This document shows, in pieces, positions 5,151 to 35,652 of a stretch of 37,272 nt of DNA. The notes under the pieces are model-generated. The model had not been told where the DNA came from, did no database searches, and saw only the letters and a program-made list of their open reading frames with translations. A program made the translations under genes and the position numbers. Source of the DNA: an uncultured Bacilli bacterium (GTDB lineage Bacteria > Bacillota_I > Bacilli_A > RF39 > UBA660). Location of the stretch: NCBI GenBank assembly GCA_947628275.1, contig CANQZD010000002.1:1-37272 (forward strand), read 5' to 3'. Each line of letters starts with the position of its first letter. The stretch's first letter is position 1.

Positions 5151-5188
5151 ACTGACATTTTTTTTAATATTAATTTTGTATAATACTA

Positions 5189-12542: not shown

Positions 12543-12571
12543 TTTACATCAATTTAAATTAATGTTAAAAT
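12543..12571 (+). promoter_or_regulatory. Candidate promoter of the surface-polysaccharide locus
   Basis: TTTACA (12543-12548), 17-nt spacer, TAAAAT (12566-12571); argues against translation starting at 12570. Confidence 0.45.
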
Positions 12572-12593
12572 GTTGCAAAGAGAGATGAAAAAT

Positions 12594-13514
12594 ATGAATG
12601 AATTTTTAGTAGGGTATACAGGTTTTGTTGGTTCTAATATTAATGATAAGCATGAATTTACAAAATGTTTTAATTCTAAAAATATTACCGAAGCTTTTGG
12701 TTTAAATCCTGATATTTTAGTTTATTGTGGAATCCCAGCCCAAAAATTTATTGCTAATGCTAATCCTGATGAAGATTTTAAAATTATCTTAAATGCTATA
12801 GAAAATATTAAAAAAATTAATCCCAAAAAATTGGTTTTAATTTCAACTATTGATGTATATGATAATCCAGTAAATGTTGATGAAGAAACTATGTTTGAAG
12901 TAAGTAAAGATGCATATGGTAAAAATCGAAAATATTTAGAAGATTGGGTTATTAACAATCTTCAAGATTATCATATTATTAGACTTCCTGGTTTGTATGG
13001 CAAAAATTTAAAGAAAAATTTTATATATGATTTAATTAATATTATTCCTAGTATGCTAAAAGAAAATAAATATGAAGAATTATTATCTAAAAATAATGAT
13101 TTAGAAAAATATTATTATAAAAGTGATAATGGCTTTTATAAATGTCGGGAATTAACTAAAGAAGAACATCAAAAATTAAAAAAAATTTTTAATGATTTAG
13201 GTTTTTCAGCTTTAAACTTTACTGATAGTCGAGGCTCATTTCAATTTTATAACTTAAATAATTTATGGGAACATATTTTAAATGTTATTAAAAATGATAT
13301 TAAAATTTTAAATGTTGCCACGGAGCCAATTACGATTAAAGAATTATATTATTATCTATTTGCTAAAGATTTTAACAATGAAATTAGTAATGTTATTCCA
13401 AATTATAATTTTAAAACTAAATATGCTAAATTATTTAATGGACATAATGGTTATATTTATAATAAAGATTATGTTTTAGAAGATATTAAAAAATTTGTTT
13501 TAGAAAGAAAGTAG
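12594..13514 (+). CDS. NAD-dependent epimerase/dehydratase-like SDR
   Basis: FLVGYTGFVGSNI (GxxGxxG), LVLISTIDVY, DAYGKNRKYLEDWV. Start moved downstream of the 12570 call. Confidence 0.75.
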   Translation: MNEFLVGYTGFVGSNINDKHEFTKCFNSKNITEAFGLNPDILVYCGIPAQKFIANANPDEDFKIILNAIENIKKINPKKLVLISTIDVYDNPVNVDEETMFEVSKDAYGKNRKYLEDWVINNLQDYHIIRLPGLYGKNLKKNFIYDLINIIPSMLKENKYEELLSKNNDLEKYYYKSDNGFYKCRELTKEEHQKLKKIFNDLGFSALNFTDSRGSFQFYNLNNLWEHILNVIKNDIKILNVATEPITIKELYYYLFAKDFNNEISNVIPNYNFKTKYAKLFNGHNGYIYNKDYVLEDIKKFVLERK

Positions 13515-13522
13515 GGATTTTA

Positions 13523-14311
13523 ATGAAAATAGCTATTTCTAATATTGCTTGGTCTAAAGACGAAGATTCAAAAATGTATGAATATTTAAAAAAAAATGAT
13601 ATTACTTCTTTGGAAATTGCTCCCACAAGAATAATTGAAGAAAATCCTTATAATCATTTAGATGAAGCACAAAAAATAGCTCAAGAATTAAAAAATAATT
13701 ATCAATTAGATATTGTGTCTATGCAATCAATTTGGTTTGGCAAAAAAGAAAATATTTTTGTAAGTGAAGAAAATTATCAAATATTAGTTGATTATACTAA
13801 AAAGGCCATTTTATTTGCCCATGCTATTGGGTGTCCTAATTTAGTTTTTGGCAACCCAAAAAATCGAAATATGGATAATTATGAAAAAGATTATCCAATT
13901 GCCTTAAATTTTTTTAAAGAAATTGGTCAATTTGCTTTAAACAATAATGTAGTAATTGCTCTTGAACCTAATCCAACCATTTATAACACAAATTTTTTAA
14001 ATACTACTAAAGAAGCTCTTGATTTTGTAAAAAAAATCGCTTTACCTAGTGTTAAAATAAACTATGATTTAGGAACCGTTATAGCAAATAATGAAGAATT
14101 AACTATTATTGAACAAAATCTTGAGTATATTAACCATATTCATATTAGCGAACCAAATTTAGAAATAATTCAAAATCGTCATCTTCACCAAGAATTAGCT
14201 AATATTTTAAAAACCAAAAATTATAATAAAGCTATTTCTATTGAAATGAACAAAAGCAATTTTCAAAATATAGCAAGTGTGTTACAATATGTAATAGAAA
14301 TTTTTAGGTGA
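13523..14311 (+). CDS. Sugar phosphate isomerase/epimerase (xylose isomerase-like TIM barrel)
   Basis: SLEIAPTRI, DIVSMQSIWFG, VVIALEPNPTIYNT, VKINYDLGT, HIHISEP, ISIEMNK. Confidence 0.8.
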   Translation: MKIAISNIAWSKDEDSKMYEYLKKNDITSLEIAPTRIIEENPYNHLDEAQKIAQELKNNYQLDIVSMQSIWFGKKENIFVSEENYQILVDYTKKAILFAHAIGCPNLVFGNPKNRNMDNYEKDYPIALNFFKEIGQFALNNNVVIALEPNPTIYNTNFLNTTKEALDFVKKIALPSVKINYDLGTVIANNEELTIIEQNLEYINHIHISEPNLEIIQNRHLHQELANILKTKNYNKAISIEMNKSNFQNIASVLQYVIEIFR

Positions 14312-14316
14312 GAGTT

Positions 14317-15126
14317 ATGAAAACAAAAAAAATTAATGGTGTTCCGGATTTTACAGTTAAAGAATACAAAAAAAAACAAAATAAATATTGCTTATTAATT
14401 CCTATTCTAAATGAAGGTGAAAGAATTAAAAATGAATTGCAAAGAGCCCAAAAGAAAAATATTGGTTCAATAGTAGATATAATCATTTGTGATGGAAAAT
14501 CAAGTGATGGTAGTACTGATGATAAAATTTTAAAATCATATGATGTAAATACATTACTTACTAAAACTGGTGATGGTCGTCAAGGTGCTCAATTAAGAAT
14601 GGGAATTTATTATGCATTACAAAAAGGATATGAGGGAATTATAACAATTGATGGCAATAATAAAGATAGTATTGAAGATGTTCCAAAATTTATAAAAAAA
14701 TTAGAAGAAGGCTATGATTTTGTTCAAGGCTCACGTTTTATTAAAGGTGGTGAAGCCATTAATACCCCAATAATTAGATATTTATCAGTTCGCTTTATCC
14801 ATGCTCCAATAATTTCCATTACTGCTCATAAATGGTATACTGATACAACTAATAATTTTCGAGCTTATTCTAAAGAATATTTAGAAAATGAAAATGTTCA
14901 ACCATTAAGAGATATATTTGTTACATATGAATTATTAGCTTATTTATCAGTTAAAGCTGATCAATTAAAAATGAAAACATGTGAAATTCCGGTAAAAAGA
15001 GAATATCCCAAAAACGCCAAAACACCTACTAAAATTAGTCCTATAAAAGGTAATTCTGATTTAATGAGAATATTATTTCAAAATTTATTTCATAAATATG
15101 ATGTAAAAAACATCAAAAGAAAGTAG
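14317..15126 (+). CDS. Glycosyltransferase family 2 (polyprenyl-P-sugar synthase-like)
   Basis: LLIPILNEGERI, IIICDGKSSDGSTD, ITIDGNNKDS, DFVQGSRFIKGG. ATG 14317 with aggtgagag RBS preferred. Confidence 0.88.
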   Translation: MKTKKINGVPDFTVKEYKKKQNKYCLLIPILNEGERIKNELQRAQKKNIGSIVDIIICDGKSSDGSTDDKILKSYDVNTLLTKTGDGRQGAQLRMGIYYALQKGYEGIITIDGNNKDSIEDVPKFIKKLEEGYDFVQGSRFIKGGEAINTPIIRYLSVRFIHAPIISITAHKWYTDTTNNFRAYSKEYLENENVQPLRDIFVTYELLAYLSVKADQLKMKTCEIPVKREYPKNAKTPTKISPIKGNSDLMRILFQNLFHKYDVKNIKRK

Positions 15127-15133
15127 TGATAAT

Positions 15134-16213
15134 ATGCAAGTAAATAATCTCAACAATAACCTAGGGGGGGGGGTTAGTCGTGCTACAATTTACGATTGGA
15201 CTAGATTATTTGCAACAATATTTGTTGTAATAGGGCATAGTGCATATTTAGAAATAAATTCTTTATATGGACATATTAACTATGTTTTACCATCATTTAC
15301 TAATTCGTTGTATACTAATCTATTACCTTTACTAGAAAAAGTAATAAGTGTTATCTACACATTTCATATGCCATTATTTTTTATTTTATCAGGGGCCGTT
15401 TTAGCACTTAAACCCTTAGGCTCATTTGAAAAAATATTTAAATCAAAAACTAAAAGATTGTTAATTCCTTATTTTATATATGGCTTATTATTTATGATTC
15501 CGATTAAATATTTTGGTAATTTTTATACCCTTAAATCACTACCAAAAGTAGTTAGTGGTTTTCTAATTGGTACTGAAGGTTCTCATTTATGGTTTTTACC
15601 AGCCCTTTTTTGGATTTTCATCATTTTTACTATTTTAAAAAAAGCTTGTCAGAAGTTTAATATAGATAATCCATATATCATTTTATTAATAAGTGGAATT
15701 ATTCAATTATTTTATCAATATATACCTTTCAACATTTTATGTTTACAAAATGGCATTCAATATATCTTTTGGTTTTCATTAGGCTATTGTTTTGAATATG
15801 AAAGGTCAAAATGTGAAAAATGGAATATGAAAAAAACTTGCTTAGCTTTTCTAATTTTATTAGCTATAGAGGTTTTAAATACAAAATTTAATTTAATAAA
15901 TCCCTTTTTTCTAATTATCTGTGGTTCATTTATGACTTATTTATTTGCTGATATATGTAACAGAGTATTTAAAAACGTTACTAATTCTAAAATTTGGAAA
16001 TTAATCATTAATAATTTATTCTTTGTTTATTTGTTTCATGACCCTTTAGAATATATTGTTTTAAGAGTTTTTATGAATTCACATTTGCTGAGTAGTGCAT
16101 TTGGGTGTATACTATATGTACTACTAAGAACTGTGGGAATATTTGCAATCAGCATTATCTTAGGCGAGGTAGTAGTATATTTAAAAAAATGTTTTAGTAA
16201 AATTTTAGATTAA
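15134..16213 (+). CDS. Acyltransferase family 3 membrane protein (O-acetyltransferase-like)
   Basis: YDWTRLFATIFVVIGHSAYLE, TFHMPLFFILSGAVL, KTKRLLIPYFIYGL, GSHLWFLPALFW; multi-TM. Confidence 0.9.
   Translation: MQVNNLNNNLGGGVSRATIYDWTRLFATIFVVIGHSAYLEINSLYGHINYVLPSFTNSLYTNLLPLLEKVISVIYTFHMPLFFILSGAVLALKPLGSFEKIFKSKTKRLLIPYFIYGLLFMIPIKYFGNFYTLKSLPKVVSGFLIGTEGSHLWFLPALFWIFIIFTILKKACQKFNIDNPYIILLISGIIQLFYQYIPFNILCLQNGIQYIFWFSLGYCFEYERSKCEKWNMKKTCLAFLILLAIEVLNTKFNLINPFFLIICGSFMTYLFADICNRVFKNVTNSKIWKLIINNLFFVYLFHDPLEYIVLRVFMNSHLLSSAFGCILYVLLRTVGIFAISIILGEVVVYLKKCFSKILD
15164..15173 (+). repeat. Homopolymeric G10 tract near the 5' end of the acyltransferase ORF
   Basis: ccta-GGGGGGGGGG-ttagtcg; the other G runs I noticed in the window are about 5 nt. 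Confidence 0.95.
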
Positions 16214-16244
16214 AATTAATAGAAAGGCTATACAGGGTGTTGTA

Positions 16245-17360
16245 ATGGAGTACGATAAAATTATTATAGGAGCTGGAATATATGGATTATATGCAGCCTT
16301 ATATTGCGGTAAGAAAGGGGAAAAAGTTTTAGTCTTAGAAAAAGAGGATAATGCATTTAAAAGAGCAACATATATCAATCAAGCCCGAGTTCATATGGGT
16401 TATCATTATCCGAGAAGTTATTCTACAGCAATTAAATCAGCACATTATTTTGAAAGATTTAATCAAGATTATGGGTTTGCAATTTTATCAAGTTTTGACC
16501 AAGTCTATGCCACAAGTTCTAAATTTAGTTGGACAGACGCTAAACAATTTAAAAAATTTTGCCAAAATGCGGATATTTTGTGTGATGAAGTAAGCACAAG
16601 CAAATATTTTAAAGAAGGAATGTGTGATGGAGCTTTTCTTACTAAAGAATATACTTATGATGCTCAAATTTTAAAAGATTATTTTTTAAAAGAAATTAAA
16701 AAATATAAAAATGTAACTATAAAATTTAATGAAGATATTACTGATATTAAAAAACAATCTAAAACTTATGATATTAAAACTAATACCGGAATATATAAAA
16801 GTGGTTATGTTTTAAATGCAACTTATGCCAGTGTAAATCAAATTCACGAAATGCTTGGTTTTGAACCATTTAAAATTAAATATGAATTATGTGAAATCAT
16901 TTTATGTACGGTTCAAGAGAAATTTAAAAATGTTGGAATAACCGTCATGGATGGTCCATTTTTTTCAATTATGCCTTTTGGAAAAACTGGTTATCACTCT
17001 TTAACTAGCGTAACTTTTACTCCACATAAAACGTCATATGATAGTTGTCCAACCTTTGAATGTCAAAAAAATTTAAAAGATAATTATTGCAGTCCTCAAA
17101 AGTTAGGTAATTGTAATAATTGTCCTCATAAACCTCAAAGTGCTTGGCCATATATGTCTAACTTAGCCAAAAAGTATTTAAAAGATGAATTTGGCTTTGA
17201 ATATGTTGGCTCTTTATTTTCAATGAAACCAATTCTTAAAGCTAGTGAAATTGATGATTCAAGACCAACTGTAATTAAAAAATTTAGTACAAATCCAACT
17301 TTTATAAGTGTATTGTCTGGAAAGATTAATACTGTATATGATTTAGATGAGGTGTTATAA
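16245..17360 (+). CDS. FAD-dependent oxidoreductase (DAO-like)
   Basis: YDKIIIGAGIYGLYAALYCGKKGEKVLVLEKE Rossmann motif; Cys-rich segment CPTFECQKNLKDNYCSPQKLGNCNNCPH. Confidence 0.85.
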   Translation: MEYDKIIIGAGIYGLYAALYCGKKGEKVLVLEKEDNAFKRATYINQARVHMGYHYPRSYSTAIKSAHYFERFNQDYGFAILSSFDQVYATSSKFSWTDAKQFKKFCQNADILCDEVSTSKYFKEGMCDGAFLTKEYTYDAQILKDYFLKEIKKYKNVTIKFNEDITDIKKQSKTYDIKTNTGIYKSGYVLNATYASVNQIHEMLGFEPFKIKYELCEIILCTVQEKFKNVGITVMDGPFFSIMPFGKTGYHSLTSVTFTPHKTSYDSCPTFECQKNLKDNYCSPQKLGNCNNCPHKPQSAWPYMSNLAKKYLKDEFGFEYVGSLFSMKPILKASEIDDSRPTVIKKFSTNPTFISVLSGKINTVYDLDEVL

Positions 17361-18292
17361 TGAATAAAGAAAAAAATTTTATATCTGCAGTTGTATATGT
17401 TCGAAATGATGAAAAAATAATTAAAAAATTTGCGTCAAAGTTAGATCAGATATTAGCTGAAAAGTTCTTAAAATATGAAATTATTTTTGTTAATGATGAA
17501 TCTACAGATAAGTCATTAGAAGAAATTAAATTGTTTGCTGACACAGTTAAAAATGCTACTGTAAGTGTAGTTAATATGAGTTATTATCAAGGTTTAGAAT
17601 TGTCTATGAATGCTGGCGTTGATTTAGCAATTGGCGATTTTGTATATGAATTTGACAATGTTTATATGGATTATAATTTAGATTTAATTTTTGAAATTTA
17701 TAAAAAATCATTAGAAGGTTATGATATTGTTAATGCTAGTAGTAAAGCCAAAAGGAAAAAATCTTCATCTTTATTTTATAAATTATTTAATCGCTTTGCT
17801 AATTATCAATATAAAATTGATACTGAAACTTTTCGGATTGTTTCAAGAAGAGCTATCAATCGAATGAATGCAATGAATAAAACAATTCCTTATCGTAAAG
17901 CTATTCAGGCTAATTGTGGTTTAAAAATAACAACAATTTATTATGATATTATAAATAAAATCACTAAAAAAGTTGATAAACAATTAAAAAAAGAGCGTGG
18001 TAAAAATGCTTTTGATGCTTTAATATTATTTACTGATGTAAGTTATAAAGCTACAATTATTTTAACAATGATTATGTTTTTGTTTAGTTTATTTGGTAGT
18101 ATTTACACTCTAGTTGTTTTCTTTACTAAACAAACAGTTGAGGGCTGGGCTTCAACGATGTTATTCATGTCTTTTGGTTTTACTGGGGTATTTCTAATTT
18201 ATGCAATTATAATTAAATATTTATCAATAATTTTAAATTTAATATTTAAAAAAGCTAATTATTTAATTGAATCTATTGATAAATTAAATTAA
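17360..18292 (+). CDS. Glycosyltransferase family 2, GtrB/DPM1-like, with C-terminal TM segments
   Basis: ISAVVYVRNDEKII, EIIFVNDESTDKSLEEI, DFVYEFDNVYMD; two C-terminal TM helices. Confidence 0.88.
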   Translation: MNKEKNFISAVVYVRNDEKIIKKFASKLDQILAEKFLKYEIIFVNDESTDKSLEEIKLFADTVKNATVSVVNMSYYQGLELSMNAGVDLAIGDFVYEFDNVYMDYNLDLIFEIYKKSLEGYDIVNASSKAKRKKSSSLFYKLFNRFANYQYKIDTETFRIVSRRAINRMNAMNKTIPYRKAIQANCGLKITTIYYDIINKITKKVDKQLKKERGKNAFDALILFTDVSYKATIILTMIMFLFSLFGSIYTLVVFFTKQTVEGWASTMLFMSFGFTGVFLIYAIIIKYLSIILNLIFKKANYLIESIDKLN

Positions 18293-22989: not shown

Positions 22990-23029
22990 TGATATACATA
23001 ACTAATATTCAAATGTTTAGGTGGTTTTA

Positions 23030-23674
23030 ATGAAAGGAAAGAAGCAAGTTAGAGAAAAAATATATTTATTTATTAAAAGAATCTTTGATATAATTTGCAG
23101 TATTGTAGGAATTATCTTTTTGATTCCCCTGACAATAATAGTTAAATTATGTTATATCTTAACTGGTGATTTTTCTAGTATCTTTTATACCCAAAAAAGA
23201 ATAGGCCAACATGGAAAAATATTTAACCTTTATAAATATCGGACGATGGTTTTAAATGCTGATGATATAATTGAAAAATGGTTAGAAGAAAATCCTGATA
23301 TCAGAAAAGAATATTTAAAAAATCGGAAATTAAAAAATGATCCGCGTATTACTAAAATTGGTCGACTTTTAAGAATTGCTTCATTAGATGAATTCCCACA
23401 ATTTGTAAATGTCTTAAAAGGCGAGATGAGTTTAATTGGGAATCGTCCTTACATGTTAAGAGAAAAAAAAGATATGGGTAAATATTATGAAGACATTGTT
23501 AAAACCAAGCCAGGTATAACTGGGTTATGGCAAGTCAGTGGTCGAAATGCTACAACTTTTAAGAAAAGATTGCAATTAGAGCAAAAATATTCGAAAACTT
23601 GTTCAATTAAATTAGATATAAAAATTTTACTTAAAACATTTGTAACAGTATTAAAAAGGGATGGAGCATTGTAA
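23030..23674 (+). CDS. Sugar transferase / polyprenyl-phosphate phosphoglycosyltransferase (initiating enzyme)
   Basis: KRIFDIICSIVGIIFLIPLTIIVKL, FYTQKRIGQHGKIFNLYKYRTMV, DPRITKIGRLLRIASLDEFPQFVNVLKGEMSLIGNRPY, KPGITGLWQVSGRN. Confidence 0.96.
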   Translation: MKGKKQVREKIYLFIKRIFDIICSIVGIIFLIPLTIIVKLCYILTGDFSSIFYTQKRIGQHGKIFNLYKYRTMVLNADDIIEKWLEENPDIRKEYLKNRKLKNDPRITKIGRLLRIASLDEFPQFVNVLKGEMSLIGNRPYMLREKKDMGKYYEDIVKTKPGITGLWQVSGRNATTFKKRLQLEQKYSKTCSIKLDIKILLKTFVTVLKRDGAL

Positions 23675-24675
23675 TGAAAAAAATATTATTAATTTTATTA
23701 TGTTTACTCACTTTTGGATGTGGAAAAAAAGTAGAAGAAACAATCGTCGTGCCTGAACCAGAAGAACAAAATATGAATGTTAAAGAAAAAATTGAAATTG
23801 TTGATGTTAATTCTAATACGAGACCTTTTGCTGTTGTAATCAATAATACTTCTGTTGCCGTTAAAGTTCAACAAGGCCTACAAAAAGCTTACATGATTTA
23901 TGAAGTGCCTGTTGAAGGCAGCCTAACAAGACTATTAGCTTTTTATAAAGATATTGATGATGTAAAAATAGGAACGATAAGAAGCGCTAGGCATAACTTT
24001 TTAGATTTAGCTTTTGAACAAGATGCTATTTTTGTTCATTGGGGCTGGAGTCGCTTTGCTAGAGATCAAATTAGTAGTTTAAATGTTAATAATTTAAATG
24101 GTTTATCTGACTCTTCATTTTGGCGGGAGAATCCTGAAGGCTTATCTTCAGAACATACTGGTTATACTAGCATTGCTAAATCAAGAGAACTTGCTAAATC
24201 AAAAGGTTATTCTCTAACTACTGATAAAGGATTAGTTTTTAACTATTCTTTAGAAGAAGTTAATTTAAGTGAAAAAGAAAATAGTCTAATAGCTAATAAC
24301 ATCATTATTCCTTCTAGCAATGAATTAAATACTAGCTATGTATACGATGAAGCTAATATGGTATATAAAAGAAGTGTTAATGGTAATCCACATCTTGACC
24401 ATGAAACCAAAGAACAATATACTGCTAAAAATATTATTATTCAAAAAATAGCTACTAGTTCTATCAAAAATAGTAAATATTGGGAACTTGGTTTAGTCGG
24501 TAGTGGTGATGGCATGTTTATTACTAATGGTTATGCCATTCCTATTAAATGGAGTAAAGCTGACCGTTATGCCAAAACTAAATATACTTACTTAGATGGT
24601 AGTGAAGTACTGTTAAATGATGGTAATCTTTATGTTCAACTAGAATCAACTAATCAAAATTATACTATTAAATAA
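23674..24675 (+). CDS. YerB-like DUF3048 lipoprotein
   Basis: Lipobox LLCLLTFGCGKK; RPFAVVINNTSVAVKVQQGLQKAYMIYEVPVEGSLTRLLAFYKD, KIGTIRSARHNFLDLA, HWGWS. Start overlaps the previous stop by 1 nt (taAtg). Confidence 0.85.
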   Translation: MKKILLILLCLLTFGCGKKVEETIVVPEPEEQNMNVKEKIEIVDVNSNTRPFAVVINNTSVAVKVQQGLQKAYMIYEVPVEGSLTRLLAFYKDIDDVKIGTIRSARHNFLDLAFEQDAIFVHWGWSRFARDQISSLNVNNLNGLSDSSFWRENPEGLSSEHTGYTSIAKSRELAKSKGYSLTTDKGLVFNYSLEEVNLSEKENSLIANNIIIPSSNELNTSYVYDEANMVYKRSVNGNPHLDHETKEQYTAKNIIIQKIATSSIKNSKYWELGLVGSGDGMFITNGYAIPIKWSKADRYAKTKYTYLDGSEVLLNDGNLYVQLESTNQNYTIK

Positions 24676-24686
24676 TAAATTATCAG

Positions 24687-24718
24687 GTAATAGCCTAAAA
24701 AACTATTACTTTTATTTT
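24687..24718 (+). terminator. Rho-independent terminator
   Basis: GTAATAG-cctaaaaaa-CTATTAC followed by TTTTATTTT. Confidence 0.75.
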
Positions 24719-24809
24719 GCCTTTGTTAATGTCTAATAGTCAAATAGGTATGTAAAAAAACAAATATTATGTTATACTTATATAAGAAATAAAAGAAAGG
24801 AGAATTATA

Positions 24810-25667
24810 ATGGTCAAAAAAACGGGTTTTAAAATTGCTATAATTGTACCATTATATAATGCTGAAAAGTATATTGAAAATTTACATCAATCTTTCTTAA
24901 ATCAAAAAAATGTAAAATTAAGTTCTATTAATTATATCTTAACAGAAAGTACTGATAAAACCGAAGAAATTTTAAAGAAAAATAAATATAAATATCAAAA
25001 AATTACTAAGGAAGAATTTTCTCATAGTACGGTAAGAGAAAATGCTGCTTTTAAAAGCCAAGCTGACATCGTCGTTTTTGTAACTCAAGATGTTCAAATT
25101 GAAGATGACAAATGGTTATATAACTTAACTAAAGATATCAATAATGAAATAATTTGTACTTATTCAAGGCAAATAACCAAATATAATAATATTGAAAAAT
25201 ATATTCGTCAAAAAAATTATCCAGAAAAATCTTATGTTGTCTCGCAAAAAGACTTGAATAAATTGGGACTCAAAACTTTTTTTTGCTCTGATGCCTCATG
25301 TGCTGTAAATCGTCAGATGTTCGTTCAATTAAATGGCTATGATCAAAAAAGACTTCCAATTAGTGAAGATATGTACTATGCTTACAAAGTTATAATGAAT
25401 GGTTACAAAATTAAATACTGTGCTAATTCAGTTGTTTATCATTCCCATAAGTTTACTCTTAAACAATTATATAATCGTTATAAATTAACCGGAAAATTTT
25501 TTAAAGAAAATAATTATTTAGATAAATATGGAACAAATCAAACTGGTGGTTCTTTAGCAAAATATGTCTTAATAAATGCTTTAAAAGATTTTAACATTAA
25601 AGTTTTAATTAGGTATCCTTTTGATATGACTGCCCGATTTATTGGGATGAAAGTAGGAAAAAGATGA
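24810..25667 (+). CDS. Glycosyltransferase family 2 (rhamnosyltransferase-like)
   Basis: IAIIVPLYNAEKYIENLHQSFLNQ, VVFVTQDVQIED, DASCAVNRQMFVQLNGYDQKRLPISEDMYYAYKVIMNGYKI, VVYHSH. Confidence 0.92.
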   Translation: MVKKTGFKIAIIVPLYNAEKYIENLHQSFLNQKNVKLSSINYILTESTDKTEEILKKNKYKYQKITKEEFSHSTVRENAAFKSQADIVVFVTQDVQIEDDKWLYNLTKDINNEIICTYSRQITKYNNIEKYIRQKNYPEKSYVVSQKDLNKLGLKTFFCSDASCAVNRQMFVQLNGYDQKRLPISEDMYYAYKVIMNGYKIKYCANSVVYHSHKFTLKQLYNRYKLTGKFFKENNYLDKYGTNQTGGSLAKYVLINALKDFNIKVLIRYPFDMTARFIGMKVGKR

Positions 25668-26509
25668 TGAAGAAAAATAATAGTTTAAGAGATTTGCAAT
25701 TATGTGAATTAGAAGTTTTAAAAGAAGTAGTAAAGTTTTGTGAAAAAAATCACTTAACTTATTATATAAGTGGCGGGACCTATTTAGGTGCTGTTCGCCA
25801 TCATGGTTTTATTCCATGGGATGATGATGTCGATATAGCCATGCCAAGAAGTGATTATGAACGTTTTTTAAGTCTAAAAGATAAATTTGAAAAACAGTCT
25901 AATTTTAAAATAAACAATTATCAATTTACTGATGACTACATATTTTATCCAACTAGAGTTGTAAATGAAAAAATTAAAGTAAAAAGTACTTCAGCAAAAG
26001 AAGATCAAATTTGGTCCGCTTGGGTTGATGTTTTCCCATTAGATGGACTACCTAAAAATCCTCTTTTAAGATGGTTTCATAAAATGAATTTATTAGAAAA
26101 AAGATTATTATTAAAATATTCCTGTTTTAACGAAGTTGTTAATCTTCACGATAAACATCGGAATATTATTGAACGTTTCTTTATTTTTATTGGTAAACAC
26201 GTTAATTTTGAAAAATATTTAAATACAAAAAAAAGATTAGATAAGTTAGATAAAACTTTAAAGAAATATTCTGATAAAGATTCGTTATTTTATATGAATT
26301 ACATGGGTGCTTATAAATTTAAAAGCATTATGGAAAAATCTTTATTTTATGGTGAAGGTGCCTATTATGATTTTGAAGGTCTAAAATTATTTGGCCCGAA
26401 AAATTATGATTTATATTTAACTAGAATTTATGGCGATTACATGAAAATTCCTAGTAAAGAAGAGCAAAATAAACATAATACGGAGTTGATAGAAGATGAC
26501 AAAATATAA
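25664..26509 (+). CDS. LicD-family phosphotransferase
   Basis: LRDLQLCELEVLKEVVKFCEKNHLTYYISGGTYLGAVRHHGFIPWDDDVDIAMPRSDYERF is a classic LicD signature. Confidence 0.96.
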   Translation: MMKKNNSLRDLQLCELEVLKEVVKFCEKNHLTYYISGGTYLGAVRHHGFIPWDDDVDIAMPRSDYERFLSLKDKFEKQSNFKINNYQFTDDYIFYPTRVVNEKIKVKSTSAKEDQIWSAWVDVFPLDGLPKNPLLRWFHKMNLLEKRLLLKYSCFNEVVNLHDKHRNIIERFFIFIGKHVNFEKYLNTKKRLDKLDKTLKKYSDKDSLFYMNYMGAYKFKSIMEKSLFYGEGAYYDFEGLKLFGPKNYDLYLTRIYGDYMKIPSKEEQNKHNTELIEDDKI

Positions 26510-26924
26510 AGTAGGTTATACGCAAGGAACGTATGATTTATTCCATGTTGGACATTTAAATTTGTTAAAAAATGCCAAAAAAAATTGTGATTATTTAATT
26601 GTTGGTATTAATTCTGATAAATTAGTTCATGAATATAAACATAAAAATCCTATTATTCCTGAACAAGAACGGTTACAAATTATTGAAGCTCTAAAAATAG
26701 TTGATGAAGTATTTATATGTAATACTCTTGATAAATTAACTATTTGGCAAGACCATCACTTTGATGAAATTTTTATTGGTACTGATTGGCAAGGTTCACC
26801 AAGATGGAATGATACCGAAAAACAATTAGCTAAAATAGGTGTTAAAGTAACTTATCTTCCTTATACTAAGCACATATCTAGTTCAATTATTCGCGACAAA
26901 ATAGGAGTAGAAAATGAAAATTAG
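26496..26924 (+). CDS. Cytidylyltransferase-family protein (glycerol-3-phosphate cytidylyltransferase-like)
   Basis: GYTQGTYDLFHVGHLNLLKNAKKNCDYLIVGINSD (HxGH), ISSSIIRDKI; overlaps the LicD gene by 14 nt. Confidence 0.92.
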   Translation: MTKYKVGYTQGTYDLFHVGHLNLLKNAKKNCDYLIVGINSDKLVHEYKHKNPIIPEQERLQIIEALKIVDEVFICNTLDKLTIWQDHHFDEIFIGTDWQGSPRWNDTEKQLAKIGVKVTYLPYTKHISSSIIRDKIGVENEN

Positions 26925-27975
26925 TATTATAATGCCTATTTATAATTCTGCAGATTATCTTAAAAAAACTATTAATTCCATCATTAACCAAACATATCAA
27001 AATTGGGAATTAATTGCTATTGATGATTGTTCTAGTGATGATAGTTATCAAATAGTCAAATCATTTTCGCATCAAGATTCTCGAATTAAAGTTTATCGTA
27101 ATCAAAAAAATTTAGGTATATGTGGTAATCGGAATGTTGGTATTTCTCATGCGACAGGGCAATATCTAGCTTTTTGTGATGACGATGATTTGTTTAATCC
27201 CAATCTTTTACAAGATAATGTTGCTATTTTAAAAAAAAATCCTCAAATTGACATGTTAAAATTTGGCAGGGAACTAATAAGTGTTAATAATAACAACCAA
27301 ATATTTAAAAAAAATGCTACTAAAATGGAGATAACCGGTTTAATTAAAGGTGAGAAAAAATATGATAAATACTTTTTAATTAGACAATCAGATATTTTGT
27401 ATAATTTATGGAATGGCTTATACCGTAAAGAATTATTAATTAAAGAAAAAATAAATTTTGATGAAGAAATGAAGTATGGAAGTGAAGACGCTAAATTTTC
27501 ATATCAAGTATATTTAAAAAGCAAAAATATATACTTAAATCCTCAAATATATTATTATCATTATAAAAGACAGATTTCCTCAACTTCTCGAAAATTTAAT
27601 ATAAATAAAATTTATTCTATTTTAAAAACTTGTGAAACTGAGTTCTTGATTTGGCAAAATATCGATTTTCAAAATTTAGAGAATCAATATCATCGAATAA
27701 TTGCTATTAATATTAATATTAATAATATAATGCATAATCAAGTTTTTCATCCACATTCAAAATTAAAATATCAACAGCGAAAAGCAATTTATGAAAAAAT
27801 AAAAAAACAAATTTTAGATAAGCATTATTTAACAAATAAAGAAATTATCAAAAAATTACGACATAATAATCGTAAACACTATATTGTAACCAAAGTATTA
27901 AGTTTAAAAAATTATTATTTTATTGATATTTTTTATAAATTATCTGCTAAAATAAAAAATCGTAAATGGAAATAA
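26914..27975 (+). CDS. Glycosyltransferase family 2
   Basis: ISIIMPIYNSADYLKKTINSIINQTYQNWELIAIDDCSSDDSY, NVGISHATGQYLAFCDDDDLF. Confidence 0.95.
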   Translation: MKISIIMPIYNSADYLKKTINSIINQTYQNWELIAIDDCSSDDSYQIVKSFSHQDSRIKVYRNQKNLGICGNRNVGISHATGQYLAFCDDDDLFNPNLLQDNVAILKKNPQIDMLKFGRELISVNNNNQIFKKNATKMEITGLIKGEKKYDKYFLIRQSDILYNLWNGLYRKELLIKEKINFDEEMKYGSEDAKFSYQVYLKSKNIYLNPQIYYYHYKRQISSTSRKFNINKIYSILKTCETEFLIWQNIDFQNLENQYHRIIAINININNIMHNQVFHPHSKLKYQQRKAIYEKIKKQILDKHYLTNKEIIKKLRHNNRKHYIVTKVLSLKNYYFIDIFYKLSAKIKNRKWK

Positions 27976-27986
27976 GGTGATGAAAA

Positions 27987-29399
27987 TTGTTTATTTTATT
28001 GGGAATAGTTTTATTTTTAATCTTTTTTAAAGTTTATCAATATTTTAAAAAAGATTTATTTTCACCTTGTGTAATAGTCTGTGCAATGTTTTGCATAAGT
28101 TATCTATGTGCATTATATAATTATGATAGCTGGGGTTTAGATAGTTATCACTATCAAACATTATTGTTAATAGTAACAGGACTTTTAAGCTTTGTCTTAA
28201 CATCTATTTTTGTTAATGATTTTTTCGCTGTTCGCTTAAATAATCCTCAAGTCTCAATTAAAACTTTACTCAAATTAACTTGTAAAGAATTTTGGAACTT
28301 TTTTAAATCAAACCATCAAGTTTCCCTTACTTTAAAATCTAAATATCAATCTTCTAAACCAAAACATATCCCACTTTTTTTGCAAATATGTATTATTTTA
28401 TTTCCATTATTAGCCATTATTTGGAAAATAAATGATATTTTTAAGGTTTCCTTTTTATATGGTGGTCCAGATTCGTTTTCATCTAAAATTGATTTTTATC
28501 GAGGAATTATTTCTTATTCTCGAGAAAACATCGTTTACAATGCTCCCTTTTTGATGAACCAATTTGAAAAAGTTATTACAGTTTTAGCCTATATAATAAT
28601 ATACTATTTAATAGGTAATTTATTTAAAAAAGATAAATTAAAAAATAATATTTTTCTAATTTTATATTTAATATTTTTTGCCATTTATATTATTCTTACA
28701 GGTGGAAGAATGCCTTTATTAAAATTAGCTGCTGCCAGTGTTTTATTTTGCTATGTATATTCTAATCGCCTTCATAATTGGCAAAAAGATATTAGCAAAC
28801 AATATATCAAAATTGGTATAATTAGTTTAATCATTTTATGTGGAGCTTTTTTCCTTCTTCATGGAATAATTGGTCGTAATCGGAGTTTTACTCCTGATTA
28901 CTATATAACTATGTATGCTGGAGGACCATTAAAACTATTTGATATGTATATTGAGGATCCCGTAGAAAAAAGCAATATAATTGGTAAAGAAACATTTTAT
29001 AATATTAATTCTTTTTTATATAAATTAGGTATCATAGATACTAAATATATTAAGCATTTAGAATTTCGCACTTATAATGACTTATTTTTAGGAAACGTTT
29101 ACACTCCATTTAGAAGATATTATGCAGATTTTAAAATTCCAGGAGTAATTATTTTACCATTAATATTTGCTTTAATTATTAATATCTTTTATTTAAAAAT
29201 GAAATTTAAAATTCAAAAAGATGAACATAATGATTTATGGTTATTATTATATAGTTTAATAATATATATTTTATTTCTATATTCTATTGATGAACAATTT
29301 TACTTAGTTGGTTTATCAACTACGTATTTTGTAATGTATATTCTAATGATTTTATTATATTTTGTTTTAGAGTTTTCAATAGAAAAGGGGCATCAATAA
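27987..29399 (+). CDS. Oligosaccharide repeat-unit polymerase (Wzy-like)
   Basis: Polytopic protein, LTGGRMPLLKLAAASVLF, GRNRSFTPDYYITMYAGGPLKLFDMY; adjacent to the Wzx-like gene. Confidence 0.78.
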   Translation: MFILLGIVLFLIFFKVYQYFKKDLFSPCVIVCAMFCISYLCALYNYDSWGLDSYHYQTLLLIVTGLLSFVLTSIFVNDFFAVRLNNPQVSIKTLLKLTCKEFWNFFKSNHQVSLTLKSKYQSSKPKHIPLFLQICIILFPLLAIIWKINDIFKVSFLYGGPDSFSSKIDFYRGIISYSRENIVYNAPFLMNQFEKVITVLAYIIIYYLIGNLFKKDKLKNNIFLILYLIFFAIYIILTGGRMPLLKLAAASVLFCYVYSNRLHNWQKDISKQYIKIGIISLIILCGAFFLLHGIIGRNRSFTPDYYITMYAGGPLKLFDMYIEDPVEKSNIIGKETFYNINSFLYKLGIIDTKYIKHLEFRTYNDLFLGNVYTPFRRYYADFKIPGVIILPLIFALIINIFYLKMKFKIQKDEHNDLWLLLYSLIIYILFLYSIDEQFYLVGLSTTYFVMYILMILLYFVLEFSIEKGHQ

Positions 29400-29401
29400 T
29401 C

Positions 29402-30757
29402 ATGAATTTAAAAAAGAATCTTTTAAAAGTTTTTTCAGCTAACTTCATTCAAACTCTTACTAGTATTTTAGTTGGTTTTATTGTACCATCAATTTTAACA
29501 ATTGAGGGTTATGCAGATTTAAAAACTTATACCTTATATATGACTTATGTAGGAGTTTTACACTTAGGTTTTGTTGATGGTCTTTATTTAAAATATGGTG
29601 GAAAAAATCTTGAAAAAATTTCTAAAGGTAAACTAAAAGGAGAGCATACTTTACTAATATTTATGCAACTATTAATGACCATTATTTTTTTAATTGTTGC
29701 TTTAATAAATCAAGATATGGTCTTATTTTTAATGACAATCTCTATTTTGCCAACAAATTTAGTAAGCTTTCATAAACAGTTTTATCAAGCCGTAGGTAAT
29801 TTTACAAAATATTCCCGCATTATGAATATTTATTCTTTTACTTATGTTATTTTTAATTTAGCGTTAGTATTTTTAATAAAAAGTACTTCTTTTGAAATAT
29901 ATTGTTTAACTAATTTTATTTGTAACACTTTTGCTTTAATTTATTCTGAATATCATTTTTATAAATTAGTTCATAATGAAAAACAACAATTAAGTAAAGA
30001 AAGCTTAAAACATATTAAATCTGGTTTTATGTTGATGAGTGGCAATCTAGCAGCAATTTTTCTTTATTCTATAGATAAATGGTTTGTTAAATTATTCTTT
30101 ACTGTTGAAGATTTTTCTTATTATTCTTTTGCTGTTTCCATGTTTAATATTATTGTGGTCATCCTAAATTCAGTAAGTATTACTTTTTATAATGTTTTTG
30201 CTAAAGAAGAAAAGCAAAATTTTGTTGCTAAAGTTAAAGATACATTATTAGTATTAGGCGCCTTTGCCAGTGCCGCATACTTTCCTTTAGCAGTATTTTT
30301 AAAATTATTCTTAGCTAAATATACACCATCTTTAACTATTATTGCTTTATCATTTGCTACTTTTCCATATTTATTTATTATCAAAGCTATTTTTGTTAAT
30401 TTATATAAAAGTCGAAAAAAAGAAAAGAAATATACTAAAGTAGTTGTTGCAATGTTAATTGTTGCTAGTATTTTAAACGCTTTATCAATGATAATCTATA
30501 AAGATATTCAAGCCATTGCTATTGCAACTTTATTATCATTTATTATTTGGTATATAGTTTCATTTTATGATTTTGGATACCTTAAATCCGATCTTCGTGA
30601 GATTAGTTTTTTGCTAATAGCTACTAGTTCTTTTATAATTTGTAGTCATTTGTCTAATATTATTCTTGGGGGTTTTATTTATCTTGTTGTTATTATTCTT
30701 AGTGAAGTAATTATTTATCGTAAATTATCAATCAGAACATTTAAATTAAAGGAGTGA
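29402..30757 (+). CDS. Polysaccharide flippase (Wzx-like, MOP superfamily)
   Basis: About 12 TM segments; FSANFIQTLTSILVGFIVPSILTIEGYADLKTYTLYMTYVGVLHLGFVDGLYLKYGG, SIDKWFVKLFFTVEDFSYYSFAVSMF. Confidence 0.85.
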   Translation: MNLKKNLLKVFSANFIQTLTSILVGFIVPSILTIEGYADLKTYTLYMTYVGVLHLGFVDGLYLKYGGKNLEKISKGKLKGEHTLLIFMQLLMTIIFLIVALINQDMVLFLMTISILPTNLVSFHKQFYQAVGNFTKYSRIMNIYSFTYVIFNLALVFLIKSTSFEIYCLTNFICNTFALIYSEYHFYKLVHNEKQQLSKESLKHIKSGFMLMSGNLAAIFLYSIDKWFVKLFFTVEDFSYYSFAVSMFNIIVVILNSVSITFYNVFAKEEKQNFVAKVKDTLLVLGAFASAAYFPLAVFLKLFLAKYTPSLTIIALSFATFPYLFIIKAIFVNLYKSRKKEKKYTKVVVAMLIVASILNALSMIIYKDIQAIAIATLLSFIIWYIVSFYDFGYLKSDLREISFLLIATSSFIICSHLSNIILGGFIYLVVIILSEVIIYRKLSIRTFKLKE

Positions 30758-30762
30758 GGACC

Positions 30763-33561
30763 ATGAAAAAAACATTTAAATGGGTAAAAGAACATAAAAT
30801 AATAATTTTTATAGCTTTAATTATTTTAATACTTTGCCTAGCATCATTTCAAATAACACCATCTTCTTTCAAAGATCGAGTTATGGGTCAGGCTTTAATG
30901 AATAATATTGATATCAATAAAATAATTAATAATCATTATTTAATTTATTGTTTTCTTTTACCATCTGTGGTATTAATATTAGCTTATTTTTATAATCAAT
31001 ATTCATCAAGATTAAATGAAAAAATTTTAAAAACTTTAAATTGTTTAATTGTGTTTGACATTATTAGTTTTATTTTAGGAATCATTGATTACTTTAAAAA
31101 TGATTATCATTCATTATTTAGTCTTACTTTAATTATTATCAATGGTCTTATAATAATTCTTATTTTATTAAATAAACTATTAAAAAAATCGTTTGATTTA
31201 GAAAAATTTAAATGGTCTTGCTTAGCTTCAGTACCTTTAACTTTTGCATTTTTATTAATTTGCAATATTATTTGTCCGTCAAAGATTAGTTTTTGGTTAG
31301 GCTATTTTATTATGGTTATTCTTGCATATATGCTAACAACTTCTAAAAAAATAAATTTTAATATTTTATCTAAATCTTATCTTATTTTTTTAGTTGCTCC
31401 AATTATAGAATGTCTTTTTTTAGAAACATACAATATTTTAAATCAAGCAAATATTATTTTACAACATAAAATTCGTTATCTATTAATTATTTACATAGGA
31501 TGTTTTATTTTAATGATTATTCATTATTTCTATTCTTTATCAAAAAAAACAAATCAAAAATTTACTTATCAAAAATATTATTATCCTTTAATTATTACCA
31601 TCATGAGTCTTATTGTTTTTTTACCTAAAATGGTTACAACTGTTAATGTTGATTTTTTTGAAAATGCCAATGAAGGTTTAGGCATTTATGAATTTTTAAA
31701 ATATCACAAAATTCCTATTTTAGAAAATTTTGATGCTCATATGTTAAAGCAAGAATTTATGGGAATAATTTATGGAATATTAAATCAAGATTATCTAGGC
31801 GCCGCCTTTAATATTTATAGTAATTTTGAATTGGTTATCTTTTATTTATTAGTTTATTTTCTTTTAAGTAAAGTCTTTTCTAAGGACCTTGCTTTTCTAG
31901 CAGTTCTATTTTTCCCACTTTTATCTGATAGCGGTTTAAAATATTTTGGCTTTTGTTTTCTAGCACTTTTAGCTTTGTTAAAACTCGTTAAAAAACCGCA
32001 ATTTATTAATTATGTAATTTGTTGGCTAACAATTATCTTTCTTTGCTTATGGCGTTTAGACCTTGGCTTTTCATCAGCTATAGCAAGTATAATAATTTTG
32101 ATTTATTTAATTTTCAAAAAACAAATTAATTTTCGACAATTATTTTTAGCTTTTCTACTTGTTATCGTTCCTTTAATTTTGTTATATATTAGTTTATGTT
32201 TCATTAAAAACATTAACCCAATAACAAGAATTATTGAATTTTTAAAATTAGCTTCTTCTAATTCTAATTGGGCTTATAAATCAATAGGATCACCTAAATT
32301 GCTAGCATATAGTATATTATATATTTTTATTCCTGTATTTGTGGTTATAAGTTTTGCCCATACATTTTATAAAAATTATAAATCAAAAACAATTAAAACA
32401 TTAGATATTATTACTTTATTTTTAGGATTATTTTATCTTTCTAATCTTTCTAGAGGATTAGTAAGACATTCTTTAGTTGAAGAAAAAATAAATGTTATTA
32501 TGGGAGTAGTAACTATCTATATTCCTTTATATTTTTACCAATTTAAAAATAAAATATCAACATTTTGGTTTAGTTATCTAATTGTAATTATAATTAGTAG
32601 TTTACTAATTTCACCAACTACAGCAAATTATAGTAATTTATTTAATAATGCTATCAATAAATATCAATCATTTAAAATTCAAAATGAGAAATATTTTGAA
32701 AAAGTAAATCGGGTTGTTTTTTCTAAAGAAATAGATGATTCTTGTAAAGAATTAAAAAATATTTTAAATAAACTTTTAAATAAAGGGGAGACTTACTTAG
32801 ATTTATCTAATCAAACGTTACTATATGCTATTTTAGATTATCCTAAACCTGTTTATGTTAATCAATCACCAGGTTTATTAAGTGGTGAATATACTATGCA
32901 ACAATTTTTAAAAGAACAAGCTAATTATCAAATTCCAGTTGTTTTAAAAGCTAATCAACAAAAACATTCTAATAGTTTAGATGGCCTTGTTAATAATTAT
33001 CGATATTATTTAATTAGTGAATATGTTTATCAAAATTATGAACCGGTTTTAGAAGTTAACAATTATGAAATTTGGTTAGATAAAAATTTGACTTCAAGAT
33101 TAGACAATCTTGATATTATAGAAAATTATTCTATCAAAAGATTAGACAAAACTGAATATTTTGAACCAGAAACAACTATTAATTTAGGTTATTTACCATA
33201 TGTCTGGGGACAATTTGATAATAAAAATAAAATTAAAAAAACCAAAGGACAATCACTTAATTTGAAATCAGACACAGAAATTTTAATTAATCAGTCTCAA
33301 ATAAATAAAGATAATGGTAATTACTTAGAATTGGAATTAGAAAGTAATAAAGATACTAAAATTACTATAAAATTAATGAATGATGATAATAACTTAAAAA
33401 CAATAAAATTAAATGTTTTATCAGGAAAACACCTATATAAAATAAGAGTAAGTTCTTTTTATGAATGGTATAACTATAATATTAATGAGTTAAAAATTAA
33501 TATTCCAAATTCTCAAATAAATAAAATTATGATTACGCCAGGAGACATTTTAGAATATTAA
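30763..33561 (+). CDS. Large polytopic membrane protein, probable GT-C-like glycosyltransferase with C-terminal extracytoplasmic domain
   Basis: About 930 aa; many TM helices then a soluble region with YVYQNYEPVLEVNNYEIWLDK. Confidence 0.6.
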   Translation: MKKTFKWVKEHKIIIFIALIILILCLASFQITPSSFKDRVMGQALMNNIDINKIINNHYLIYCFLLPSVVLILAYFYNQYSSRLNEKILKTLNCLIVFDIISFILGIIDYFKNDYHSLFSLTLIIINGLIIILILLNKLLKKSFDLEKFKWSCLASVPLTFAFLLICNIICPSKISFWLGYFIMVILAYMLTTSKKINFNILSKSYLIFLVAPIIECLFLETYNILNQANIILQHKIRYLLIIYIGCFILMIIHYFYSLSKKTNQKFTYQKYYYPLIITIMSLIVFLPKMVTTVNVDFFENANEGLGIYEFLKYHKIPILENFDAHMLKQEFMGIIYGILNQDYLGAAFNIYSNFELVIFYLLVYFLLSKVFSKDLAFLAVLFFPLLSDSGLKYFGFCFLALLALLKLVKKPQFINYVICWLTIIFLCLWRLDLGFSSAIASIIILIYLIFKKQINFRQLFLAFLLVIVPLILLYISLCFIKNINPITRIIEFLKLASSNSNWAYKSIGSPKLLAYSILYIFIPVFVVISFAHTFYKNYKSKTIKTLDIITLFLGLFYLSNLSRGLVRHSLVEEKINVIMGVVTIYIPLYFYQFKNKISTFWFSYLIVIIISSLLISPTTANYSNLFNNAINKYQSFKIQNEKYFEKVNRVVFSKEIDDSCKELKNILNKLLNKGETYLDLSNQTLLYAILDYPKPVYVNQSPGLLSGEYTMQQFLKEQANYQIPVVLKANQQKHSNSLDGLVNNYRYYLISEYVYQNYEPVLEVNNYEIWLDKNLTSRLDNLDIIENYSIKRLDKTEYFEPETTINLGYLPYVWGQFDNKNKIKKTKGQSLNLKSDTEILINQSQINKDNGNYLELELESNKDTKITIKLMNDDNNLKTIKLNVLSGKHLYKIRVSSFYEWYNYNINELKINIPNSQINKIMITPGDILEY

Positions 33562-33571
33562 TTTGCAAACC

Positions 33572-33600
33572 TTGTTTTTTAATTAAATCCATTTTATAAT
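33572..33600 (+). promoter_or_regulatory. Sigma-A-type promoter for rmlA-glf-rmlDC
   Basis: TTGTTT (33572-33577), 17-nt spacer, TATAAT (33595-33600); aggagg RBS follows. Confidence 0.5.
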
Positions 33601-33632
33601 TAAACAAAAGTAAGTTTCAAATAGGAGGTCCA

Positions 33633-34523
33633 ATGAAAGGAATTATTTTAGCTGGTGGAAGTGGAACCAGACTTTATCCCATAACTGAAGGAATCAGTAA
33701 ACAATTGATGCCCATTTATGATAAACCCATGATTTATTATCCCTTATCAACTTTAATGCTTGCTGGGATTAAAGAAATATTAGTAATTACTACTAAAGAA
33801 GACCAAGAAAGTTTTAAACGGCTTTTAAAAGATGGTCAAGATTTCGGAATTAAAATAACTTATCAAATTCAAGAAAAACCTGAAGGCTTAGCTCAAGCTT
33901 TTATGATTGGAAAAGATTTTATTGGTAACAATCCTTGTGCAATGGTTTTAGGTGATAATATTTTTTATGGCAATAAATTCAATGAAATGTTAGAGCATGC
34001 TAAAACTAATGCTTATGAAGGTAAAGCTACCATCTTTGGTAATCAAGTAAAAGACCCAGAACGCTTTGGAATTATGGAATTAGATGCTAATAATAATGTT
34101 TTAAGTGTAGAAGAAAAACCAAAATATCCTAAATCTAATTATGCTATTACTGGCTTATATTTTTATCCCAAAGGAGTTAGCAATCTTGCTCAAAATATAA
34201 CTAAATCAGCTCGGGGTGAATATGAAATTACTACCTTAAATGAACTATATTTAACTAATGGTTTACTAAAAGCAGAAATTTTAGGTGAAGAATTTACTTG
34301 GTTTGATACGGGTACTTTTGATAGCGAACTAGATGCTGCTAATATGATTAGAGCTATTGAAAAAAATAAAGATAAAATAATTTGCTGTCCAGAACAAATA
34401 GCTTATTATAGTGGTTGGATTAATAACGAACAATTAGAGCAAAGAGCCAAGTTATTAAATAAAAATCAATATGGAGAGTATTTACTAAAATTAGTTAAAA
34501 CTCCTAAAGAAACAAAAAGATAG
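33633..34523 (+). CDS. rmlA: Glucose-1-phosphate thymidylyltransferase
   Basis: MKGIILAGGSGTRLYPITEGISKQLMPIYDKPMIYYPLSTLMLAGI; EYEITTLNELYL; FTWFDTGTFDSELDAAN. Confidence 0.98.
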   Translation: MKGIILAGGSGTRLYPITEGISKQLMPIYDKPMIYYPLSTLMLAGIKEILVITTKEDQESFKRLLKDGQDFGIKITYQIQEKPEGLAQAFMIGKDFIGNNPCAMVLGDNIFYGNKFNEMLEHAKTNAYEGKATIFGNQVKDPERFGIMELDANNNVLSVEEKPKYPKSNYAITGLYFYPKGVSNLAQNITKSARGEYEITTLNELYLTNGLLKAEILGEEFTWFDTGTFDSELDAANMIRAIEKNKDKIICCPEQIAYYSGWINNEQLEQRAKLLNKNQYGEYLLKLVKTPKETKR

Positions 34524-34539
34524 ATATAAGGAAAATTTT

Positions 34540-35652
34540 ATGAAAAAATATGATTATTTAATTGTTGGAGCTGGTTTATTTGGTTCAACATTTGCTTATG
34601 AAATGACTAAAAGAGGCTACAAAGTCTTAGTAATTGAACGTAGAAATCACCTTGGTGGTAATATATATTGTGAGAATATCAATGGAATTAATGTTCATAA
34701 ATATGGGGCTCATATTTTTCATACCTCAGATAAAGCCCTTTGGGATTATGTTCACCAATTTTGTGAATTTAATAATTATATTAATTCTCCTATTGCTAAT
34801 TATAAAGGAACATTATATAATTTACCGTTTAATATGAATACTTTTACTAAATTATGGCCAGATGTTATAACTCCTTCTGATGCTTTTCAAAAAATTGAAT
34901 CTCAAAAGCAAATGCTTAATGGTAAGAAGCCAGAAAATTTAGAAGAACAAGCCATAAGCTTAGTTGGAGAAGATATTTATGAAAAATTAGTTAAAGGTTA
35001 CACTGAAAAACAATGGAATAGGGAGTGTAAAGATCTTCCAAGCTTTATTATTAAAAGATTACCTGTTCGCTTTACTTTTAACAATAATTATTTTAATGAC
35101 CGTTATCAAGGAATTCCAATTGGTGGCTATAATATAATTATTGAAAAAATGCTTGAAAAATGTGATGTAAAGTTAAATACGGATTATTTGAAATCTAAAG
35201 AAGAGTATAATGCTTTAGCTTCTAAAGTTTTATATACAGGTATGATTGATGAGTATTTTGATTATCAATTGGGTAATTTAGAATATCGTAGTCTAAAATT
35301 TGAAAATGAAATTTTAGAAGATATTGATAATTATCAAGGTAATGCTGTAGTAAATTATACTGACCGCGAAACTCCTTATACAAGAATAATTGAACATAAG
35401 TACTTTGAGTTTAGTGAACAATGTGGTACAATTATTACGAAAGAATATCCAAGTGATTGGCATGTTGGTGATGAAGCTTATTATCCTATTAATGATGAGA
35501 AAAATACTAAACTTTATGAAGAATATCAAAAGTTAGCTTTAAATGAAAAACAAGTTATCTTTGGAGGAAGATTAGGAAATTATCAATATTATGATATGGA
35601 TAAAACAATAAAAGCAGCTTTACAATTAGTTGAAAGTCTTAGGGAGGATTAA
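34540..35652 (+). CDS. glf: UDP-galactopyranose mutase
   Basis: YDYLIVGAGLFGSTFAYEMTKRGYKVLVIERRNHLGGNIYCE, KYGAHIFHTSD, GYTEKQWNRECKDLPSFIIKRLPVRFTFNNNYFNDRYQGIPIGGYN, GRLGNYQYYDMD. Confidence 0.98.
   Translation: MKKYDYLIVGAGLFGSTFAYEMTKRGYKVLVIERRNHLGGNIYCENINGINVHKYGAHIFHTSDKALWDYVHQFCEFNNYINSPIANYKGTLYNLPFNMNTFTKLWPDVITPSDAFQKIESQKQMLNGKKPENLEEQAISLVGEDIYEKLVKGYTEKQWNRECKDLPSFIIKRLPVRFTFNNNYFNDRYQGIPIGGYNIIIEKMLEKCDVKLNTDYLKSKEEYNALASKVLYTGMIDEYFDYQLGNLEYRSLKFENEILEDIDNYQGNAVVNYTDRETPYTRIIEHKYFEFSEQCGTIITKEYPSDWHVGDEAYYPINDEKNTKLYEEYQKLALNEKQVIFGGRLGNYQYYDMDKTIKAALQLVESLRED

Follow-up and report, generated by a model that had tools for sequence, protein, structure and literature searches.

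A run of ten guanines near the start of an acyltransferase-3 gene very probably acts as a slipped-strand phase-variation switch for this enzyme, in a polysaccharide locus of the rhamnose, galactofuranose and choline-phosphate type. An earlier note on the 37,272-base stretch of DNA analysed here (the window) had proposed the tract as a candidate phase-variable switch, and this proposal is supported by relatives of the gene assembled in both registers and by the abundance of poly-G tracts in the genome and genus.

A poly-G tract in an acyltransferase-3 gene

The features of the gene are as follows.

15134..16213, + strand: acyltransferase-3 gene (PF01757), 359 aa, ON (in frame) at the assembled tract length; from ORF and Pfam
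15164..15173, + strand: G10 tract, the proposed slippage switch; spans codons 11-13 and opens codon 14
15174..15179, + strand: TTAGTC, source of the out-of-frame TAG right behind the tract at G8 and G11
15203..15238, + strand: TM1 motif R-X10-H (R24...H35), missing from the product in either OFF register

Direct reading of the sequence places ten Gs at 15164-15173 on the forward strand, inside the acyltransferase-3 ORF. A scan of the 37,272-base window found no further run of six or more Gs or Cs, which bears out the earlier description of a G10 tract in AT-rich surroundings. The tract had been assigned to codons 11-14; glycines do occupy codons 11-13, whereas codon 14 is a valine (GTT) that the tenth G opens. 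Under a first-order model of the window sequence, G runs of at least ten are expected 0.0008 times in the window and 0.02 times in the 947,542-base assembly, and the homopolymer is thus far longer than composition would lead one to expect. Among the glycine codons of the window's genes GGG is also used least (6.5% of them when the tract is left aside), and the chance of three consecutive GGG codons is about 3 × 10−4.

We translated the gene at each tract length. The full-length protein (358-360 aa) is obtained at G7, G10 and G13; at G8 and G11 the product is 13-14 aa, owing to a TAG stop immediately 3' of the tract, and at G9 and G12 it is 31-32 aa with the C-terminal end LVVLQFTIGLDYLQQYLL. 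In two of the three registers translation thus ends by codon 14 or 32, and a change of one base at this position would switch expression. These translations agree with those made by hand in the earlier note (TAG with 11 Gs; a short product ending in TAA with 9) and with its claim that only lengths in register with ten give the full-length protein.

A Pfam search matched residues 20-343 to PF01757 (E = 2.1 × 10−30; 106 bits against a cut-off of 31), and AT3 is the only domain found in the 359-aa product. R24-X10-H35 provides the R/K-X10-H signature of acyltransferase-3 in TM1, with both residues invariant in an alignment of four relatives; the R-X10-H motif is reported to be essential in OafA and OafB (PMC9558356). 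In the alignment of relatives the tract falls in the variable N terminus, and the part of the protein that is lost starts just before this motif. Enzyme family and locus together predict acyl transfer to a surface glycan.

The genes around the acyltransferase are listed here.

12543..12571, + strand: candidate promoter TTTACA-17-TAAAAT with extended -10, for the gene string 12570-18292; a consensus match only
12570..14311, + strand: NAD-dependent epimerase/RmlD-like and sugar-isomerase-like TIM-barrel genes, part of the acyltransferase gene string
14308..15126, + strand: immediate upstream gene, probably a glycosyltransferase
16245..18292, + strand: FAD oxidoreductase and family-2 glycosyltransferase, downstream; from ORFs and Pfam
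23021..37169, + strand: polysaccharide locus; gene content given below

The acyltransferase thus sits in a co-directional string (12570-18292) that is followed by the polysaccharide locus. The candidate promoter of the string (12543..12571) contains no poly-G. In the loci L257 and L258 the probable glycosyltransferase still adjoins the acyltransferase upstream, and a similar FAD oxidoreductase lies 3' of it; the OFF state could possibly exert polarity on the genes at 16245..18292. The polysaccharide locus encodes a WbaP-type sugar transferase, glycosyltransferases, LicD, a cytidylyltransferase and a repeat-unit polymerase, as well as an RmlA-like nucleotidyltransferase, UDP-galactopyranose mutase and RmlD/RmlC. 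Given this gene content, the substrate of the acyltransferase is likely to be a surface polysaccharide with rhamnose and galactofuranose, and possibly phosphocholine. Elsewhere in the window, genes for a germination protease and SpoIIP (4416-6082) indicate that sporulation genes are retained in the reduced genome, and two overlapping half-length EamA-family genes (18308-18971) are apparently a split transporter pair.

Tracts and registers in related acyltransferases

A search of 386 genomes of the family returned six other matches to the acyltransferase, four of them close. Tracts of 8-10 Gs occur, at one of two sites, in four of the five closest family acyltransferases (window gene included); the counter-point is the copy in G645 (61% identical), which has no tract. 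As assembled, the gene is ON in the window's genome (G000) and in G679, and OFF in G086 and G756. In the G086 copy (50% identical), G8 occupies the site of the window gene's tract; with the lead-in ATGCTTGC-G8 read from an ATG eight bases upstream, this copy would be ON at G6 or G9. The second site, at the conserved Gly-Gly after TM1, is used in G679 (59% identical; G8) and in G756 (40% identical; G10, ON at 8 or 11); one relative's tract coding this Gly-Gly lies at L071:3135-3142. The existence of a second site suggests either an independent origin or a movement of the switch. In all OFF copies the remainder of the gene is open. The earlier note had advised a comparison of tract length; made here across four family relatives, three with a tract (two OFF and one ON) and one without, it speaks for a switch.

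A protein search of 40 relatives for a closer match among congeners gave a weak match in G014 only, and further genomes from the genera of G679 and G086 all lack the gene. Both G679 and G645 are MAGs from Lapin samples, presumably rabbit. Further afield, a Treponemataceae relative (L073:3001-4022; 41% identical) carries two frameshifts, and only G4 where the window gene has its tract. Carriage of the acyltransferase by phages was considered and rejected, as viral contigs give weak, partial matches only.

Tracts are also found in other acyltransferase-3 genes of the genus, three or four of them besides the window gene; among 30 acyltransferase-3 loci examined across the genus, 5, the window gene included, have a genic tract of at least 8. 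A non-orthologous gene in G008 has G10 after TM1 and is OFF (ON at 8 or 11), and another in G001 has G10 in its C-terminal part, in frame. A fragment in G006 carries G9, and none of the lengths tested opens a full-length frame; the tract in G009 (L298), where the N terminus lies at a contig end, is not strong evidence.

These comparisons bear on whether the tract might simply be a fixed and neutral stretch of glycine codons, without any switching, in an N-terminal lead-in that is not conserved. Its place in the variable N terminus and the tractless copy in G645 fit such a view. We nevertheless consider it unlikely, given that GGG is the glycine codon used least in the window's genes, that the relatives' tracts occupy two sites and leave two copies out of frame with the gene otherwise intact, and that tracts greatly exceed expectation across the genome and cluster in promoter spacers and genes (see below).

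Homopolymers can slip in transcription too, and the resulting mixture of products could dose the enzyme; programmed transcriptional slippage or ribosomal frameshifting would then yield a fixed mixture of full-length and short protein rather than a heritable switch. This is improbable, because both out-of-frame products are useless stubs, because tract position and register vary among relatives and because equal tracts lie in promoter spacers of the same genomes, where frame is irrelevant. There is very little room for a reading of the tracts as marks of decaying genes, with the out-of-frame relatives as pseudogenes on their way out: the copies in G086 and G756 are indeed frame-shifted as assembled and the G006 fragment lacks a full-length frame, but those in G086, G756 and G008 are frame-shifted at the tract alone, one extra G restores 340-352 aa in each, and the window and G679 copies are intact.

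Poly-G tracts across the genome, genus and family

The assembly to which the window belongs (947,542 bases, 25% GC, 51 contigs, 66.8% complete) contains many more such tracts. Pattern searches gave 43 overlapping G8 matches, which correspond to 15 separate tracts of 8-11. These 15 G or C runs of at least 8 compare with about 0.85 expected from base composition over the whole assembly, and the 11 runs of at least 10 with about 0.026. Seven of the 15 lie between -35 and -10 elements and eight within genes. The promoter tracts are flanked by TTGAC and TATGAT- or TATAAT-like hexamers (for example, TTGACATC-G10-TCTTATGAT); they are 9-11 long and include L038:7290-7299, L039:7491-7500, L035:30-40 and four others. 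Among the genes behind them that were readable are some for very large secreted proteins, the longest of 1,447 aa. The genic tracts are that of the acyltransferase and those of seven copies of one paralogous surface-protein family with an N-terminal membrane segment, in which one copy is in frame at the tract and the others are out.

Contig C24 ends, and C27 begins (L037 end and L038 start), with the same 95 bases flanking a tract whose length differs by one between the two contigs (G10 and G11), and these flanks differ from those of the other family copies. The simplest reading would be one locus caught at two tract lengths, although the difference could also stem from sequencing slippage or from two paralogs with identical ends. 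Among four other congeners examined, no overlapping contig ends with differing tract lengths were found.

In G000, G016, G013 and G041, unusually many contigs stop no more than 250 bases from a poly-G tract, and repeated promoter and signal-peptide sequences beside the tracts are the apparent reason. In related assemblies, all of them fragmented and short, many tracts are found a few hundred bases or less from where a contig ends, as might be seen if poly-G were a sequencing or assembly artefact (for instance, if two-colour chemistry called a missing signal as G). An artefact is nonetheless hardly credible: the acyltransferase tract has unique sequence on either side and no contig end closer than 15 kb, tracts recur in many genomes at exact functional positions (in the -35/-10 spacer, or in frame in genes), a reversed promoter pattern has no matches, and repeated 5' sequences common to paralogs explain the contig breaks better.

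Tracts of at least nine Gs occur in 34 of the 37 genomes of the genus. A TTGAC-N-G7-N-TATNAT pattern matches 29 of these 37, and the reversed pattern, used as a control, has zero matches in the same 37 genomes. The number of promoter-spacer matches per genome, partly overlapping, reaches 85 in G048 and is 20 in G002, an extreme promoter-switch repertoire. In a class-wide sample, a slightly stricter pattern matches 24 of 395 genomes, with most matches in the same family; outside the family, 12 genomes have 1-3 promoter-pattern matches each. G10 tracts are present in 120 of 290 genomes of the family. Among the matches listed, the TTGACN-to-TATAAT spacing is 15 or 18-22 in the genus at assembled lengths, 15-21 in other genera and 14-19 elsewhere. 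The position of the tract within the spacer varies between genomes; similar spacing despite this shifting place is as expected if spacing itself matters.

In congeners, the first genes behind promoter tracts and the genes that contain a tract mostly encode proteins of unknown families with an N-terminal membrane segment; others encode a bacterial sugar transferase, a GtrA-like protein, an ABC transporter ATPase, a C5-cytosine DNA methylase and another acyltransferase-3. In G012 (L227:2272-2742), G17 and G10 tracts flanked by repeated TTGACAAT lie about 0.2 kb upstream of a C5-cytosine DNA methylase gene, and methylation in this genome could possibly be phase-variable.

Twelve matches of the promoter pattern in viral contigs (GC 0.36-0.55), with no common downstream gene, are attributable to chance. 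Loss of mismatch repair was rejected as the cause of tract abundance, as MutL is present in 33 of the 37 genus genomes, our own included; there is therefore no repair defect that raises the slippage rate, and no mutator background is needed.

Proposed mechanism and relation to known switches

We infer that slippage takes place at the acyltransferase tract in living cells. During replication, a G would be gained or lost by slipped-strand mispairing; tracts of 7, 10 and 13 would keep the frame (ON), and other lengths would lead to a stop within 14 or 32 codons (OFF), ahead of the first membrane helix with the essential R-X10-H. Cells would thereby alternate reversibly between making and not making the integral-membrane acyltransferase; the most likely role of this enzyme is O-acylation (acetylation) of the surface polysaccharide that the surrounding locus builds. 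The acyltransferase switch would belong to a larger set of poly-G switches throughout the genome, which fall into two mechanical types, acting on frame (genic) and on promoter spacing (-35/-10), with surface proteins and surface-glycan enzymes as the predicted main targets. The benefit may be escape from antibody or phage.

The closest match among known systems is Neisseria pglI (NMB1836), a poly-G phase-variable O-acetyltransferase of the pilin glycan with a tract range of 9-15 (PMC5953494), likewise an acyltransferase-3 that modifies a surface glycan and carries a genic G tract (PMC5953494, PMC9558356). PglI, from a Gram-negative organism, is a fusion of AT3 with SGNH and modifies pilin glycan, whereas here AT3 is the only domain found in 359 aa, the locus is of Bacilli capsule or exopolysaccharide type and the tract has two alternative sites among relatives. 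Haemophilus influenzae oafA (a LOS O-acetyltransferase) is also a phase-variable acyltransferase-3 acting on a surface glycan, but switches by tetranucleotide repeats rather than poly-G (PMC9558356). The phasomes of Campylobacter and Helicobacter canadensis resemble ours in being AT-rich with dozens of G8-G16 tracts in surface-structure genes and promoters; H. canadensis has the same mix of promoter and genic poly-G. These organisms belong to another phylum, and there length variation was seen in reads (PMC2823697). In Neisseria porA and Treponema pallidum tp0126, poly-G lies between -35 and -10 and a 17-nt spacing is optimal, compared with the 15 or 18-22 of the genus at assembled lengths (PMC7864442). 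That layout is the one of the seven promoter tracts in our genome; it is absent at the acyltransferase tract, which is genic and would work by a different mechanism. The pilus clusters of Bifidobacterium breve are a replication-slippage ON/OFF switch in a Gram-positive gut commensal, but concern Actinobacteria and pili rather than glycan modification (PMC9187656).

The mechanism is therefore already known, with Neisseria pglI close to it; what is new is the host lineage and the scale. Poly-G contingency repertoires have mostly been described in host-adapted Proteobacteria, Campylobacterota and Treponema. In the phase-variation literature searched on RF39, Tenericutes, Mollicutes, Firmicutes and MAGs, the coverage of which is incomplete, we found no description of this repertoire, and we state its novelty cautiously. 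The earlier remark that such a switch would be unusual for a low-GC Firmicute holds for the searched literature and fails within the family, where tracts are common. On balance, we favour the view that this family of uncultured, genome-reduced gut Bacilli has one of the larger known repertoires of poly-G phase variation, with dozens of promoter-spacer and frame switches per genome that act on surface proteins, on glycan enzymes (acyltransferase-3 genes among them, which gained tracts repeatedly and at differing positions) and also, in one species or more, on a DNA cytosine methyltransferase.

Annotation of such genomes will label many switched-off genes as pseudogenes, and tract lengths can be counted per sample in existing metagenome reads, without culture. 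The expanded repertoire suggests that these common but poorly known AT-rich gut commensals use slippage to vary their surfaces, probably as a defence against phages or host antibodies.
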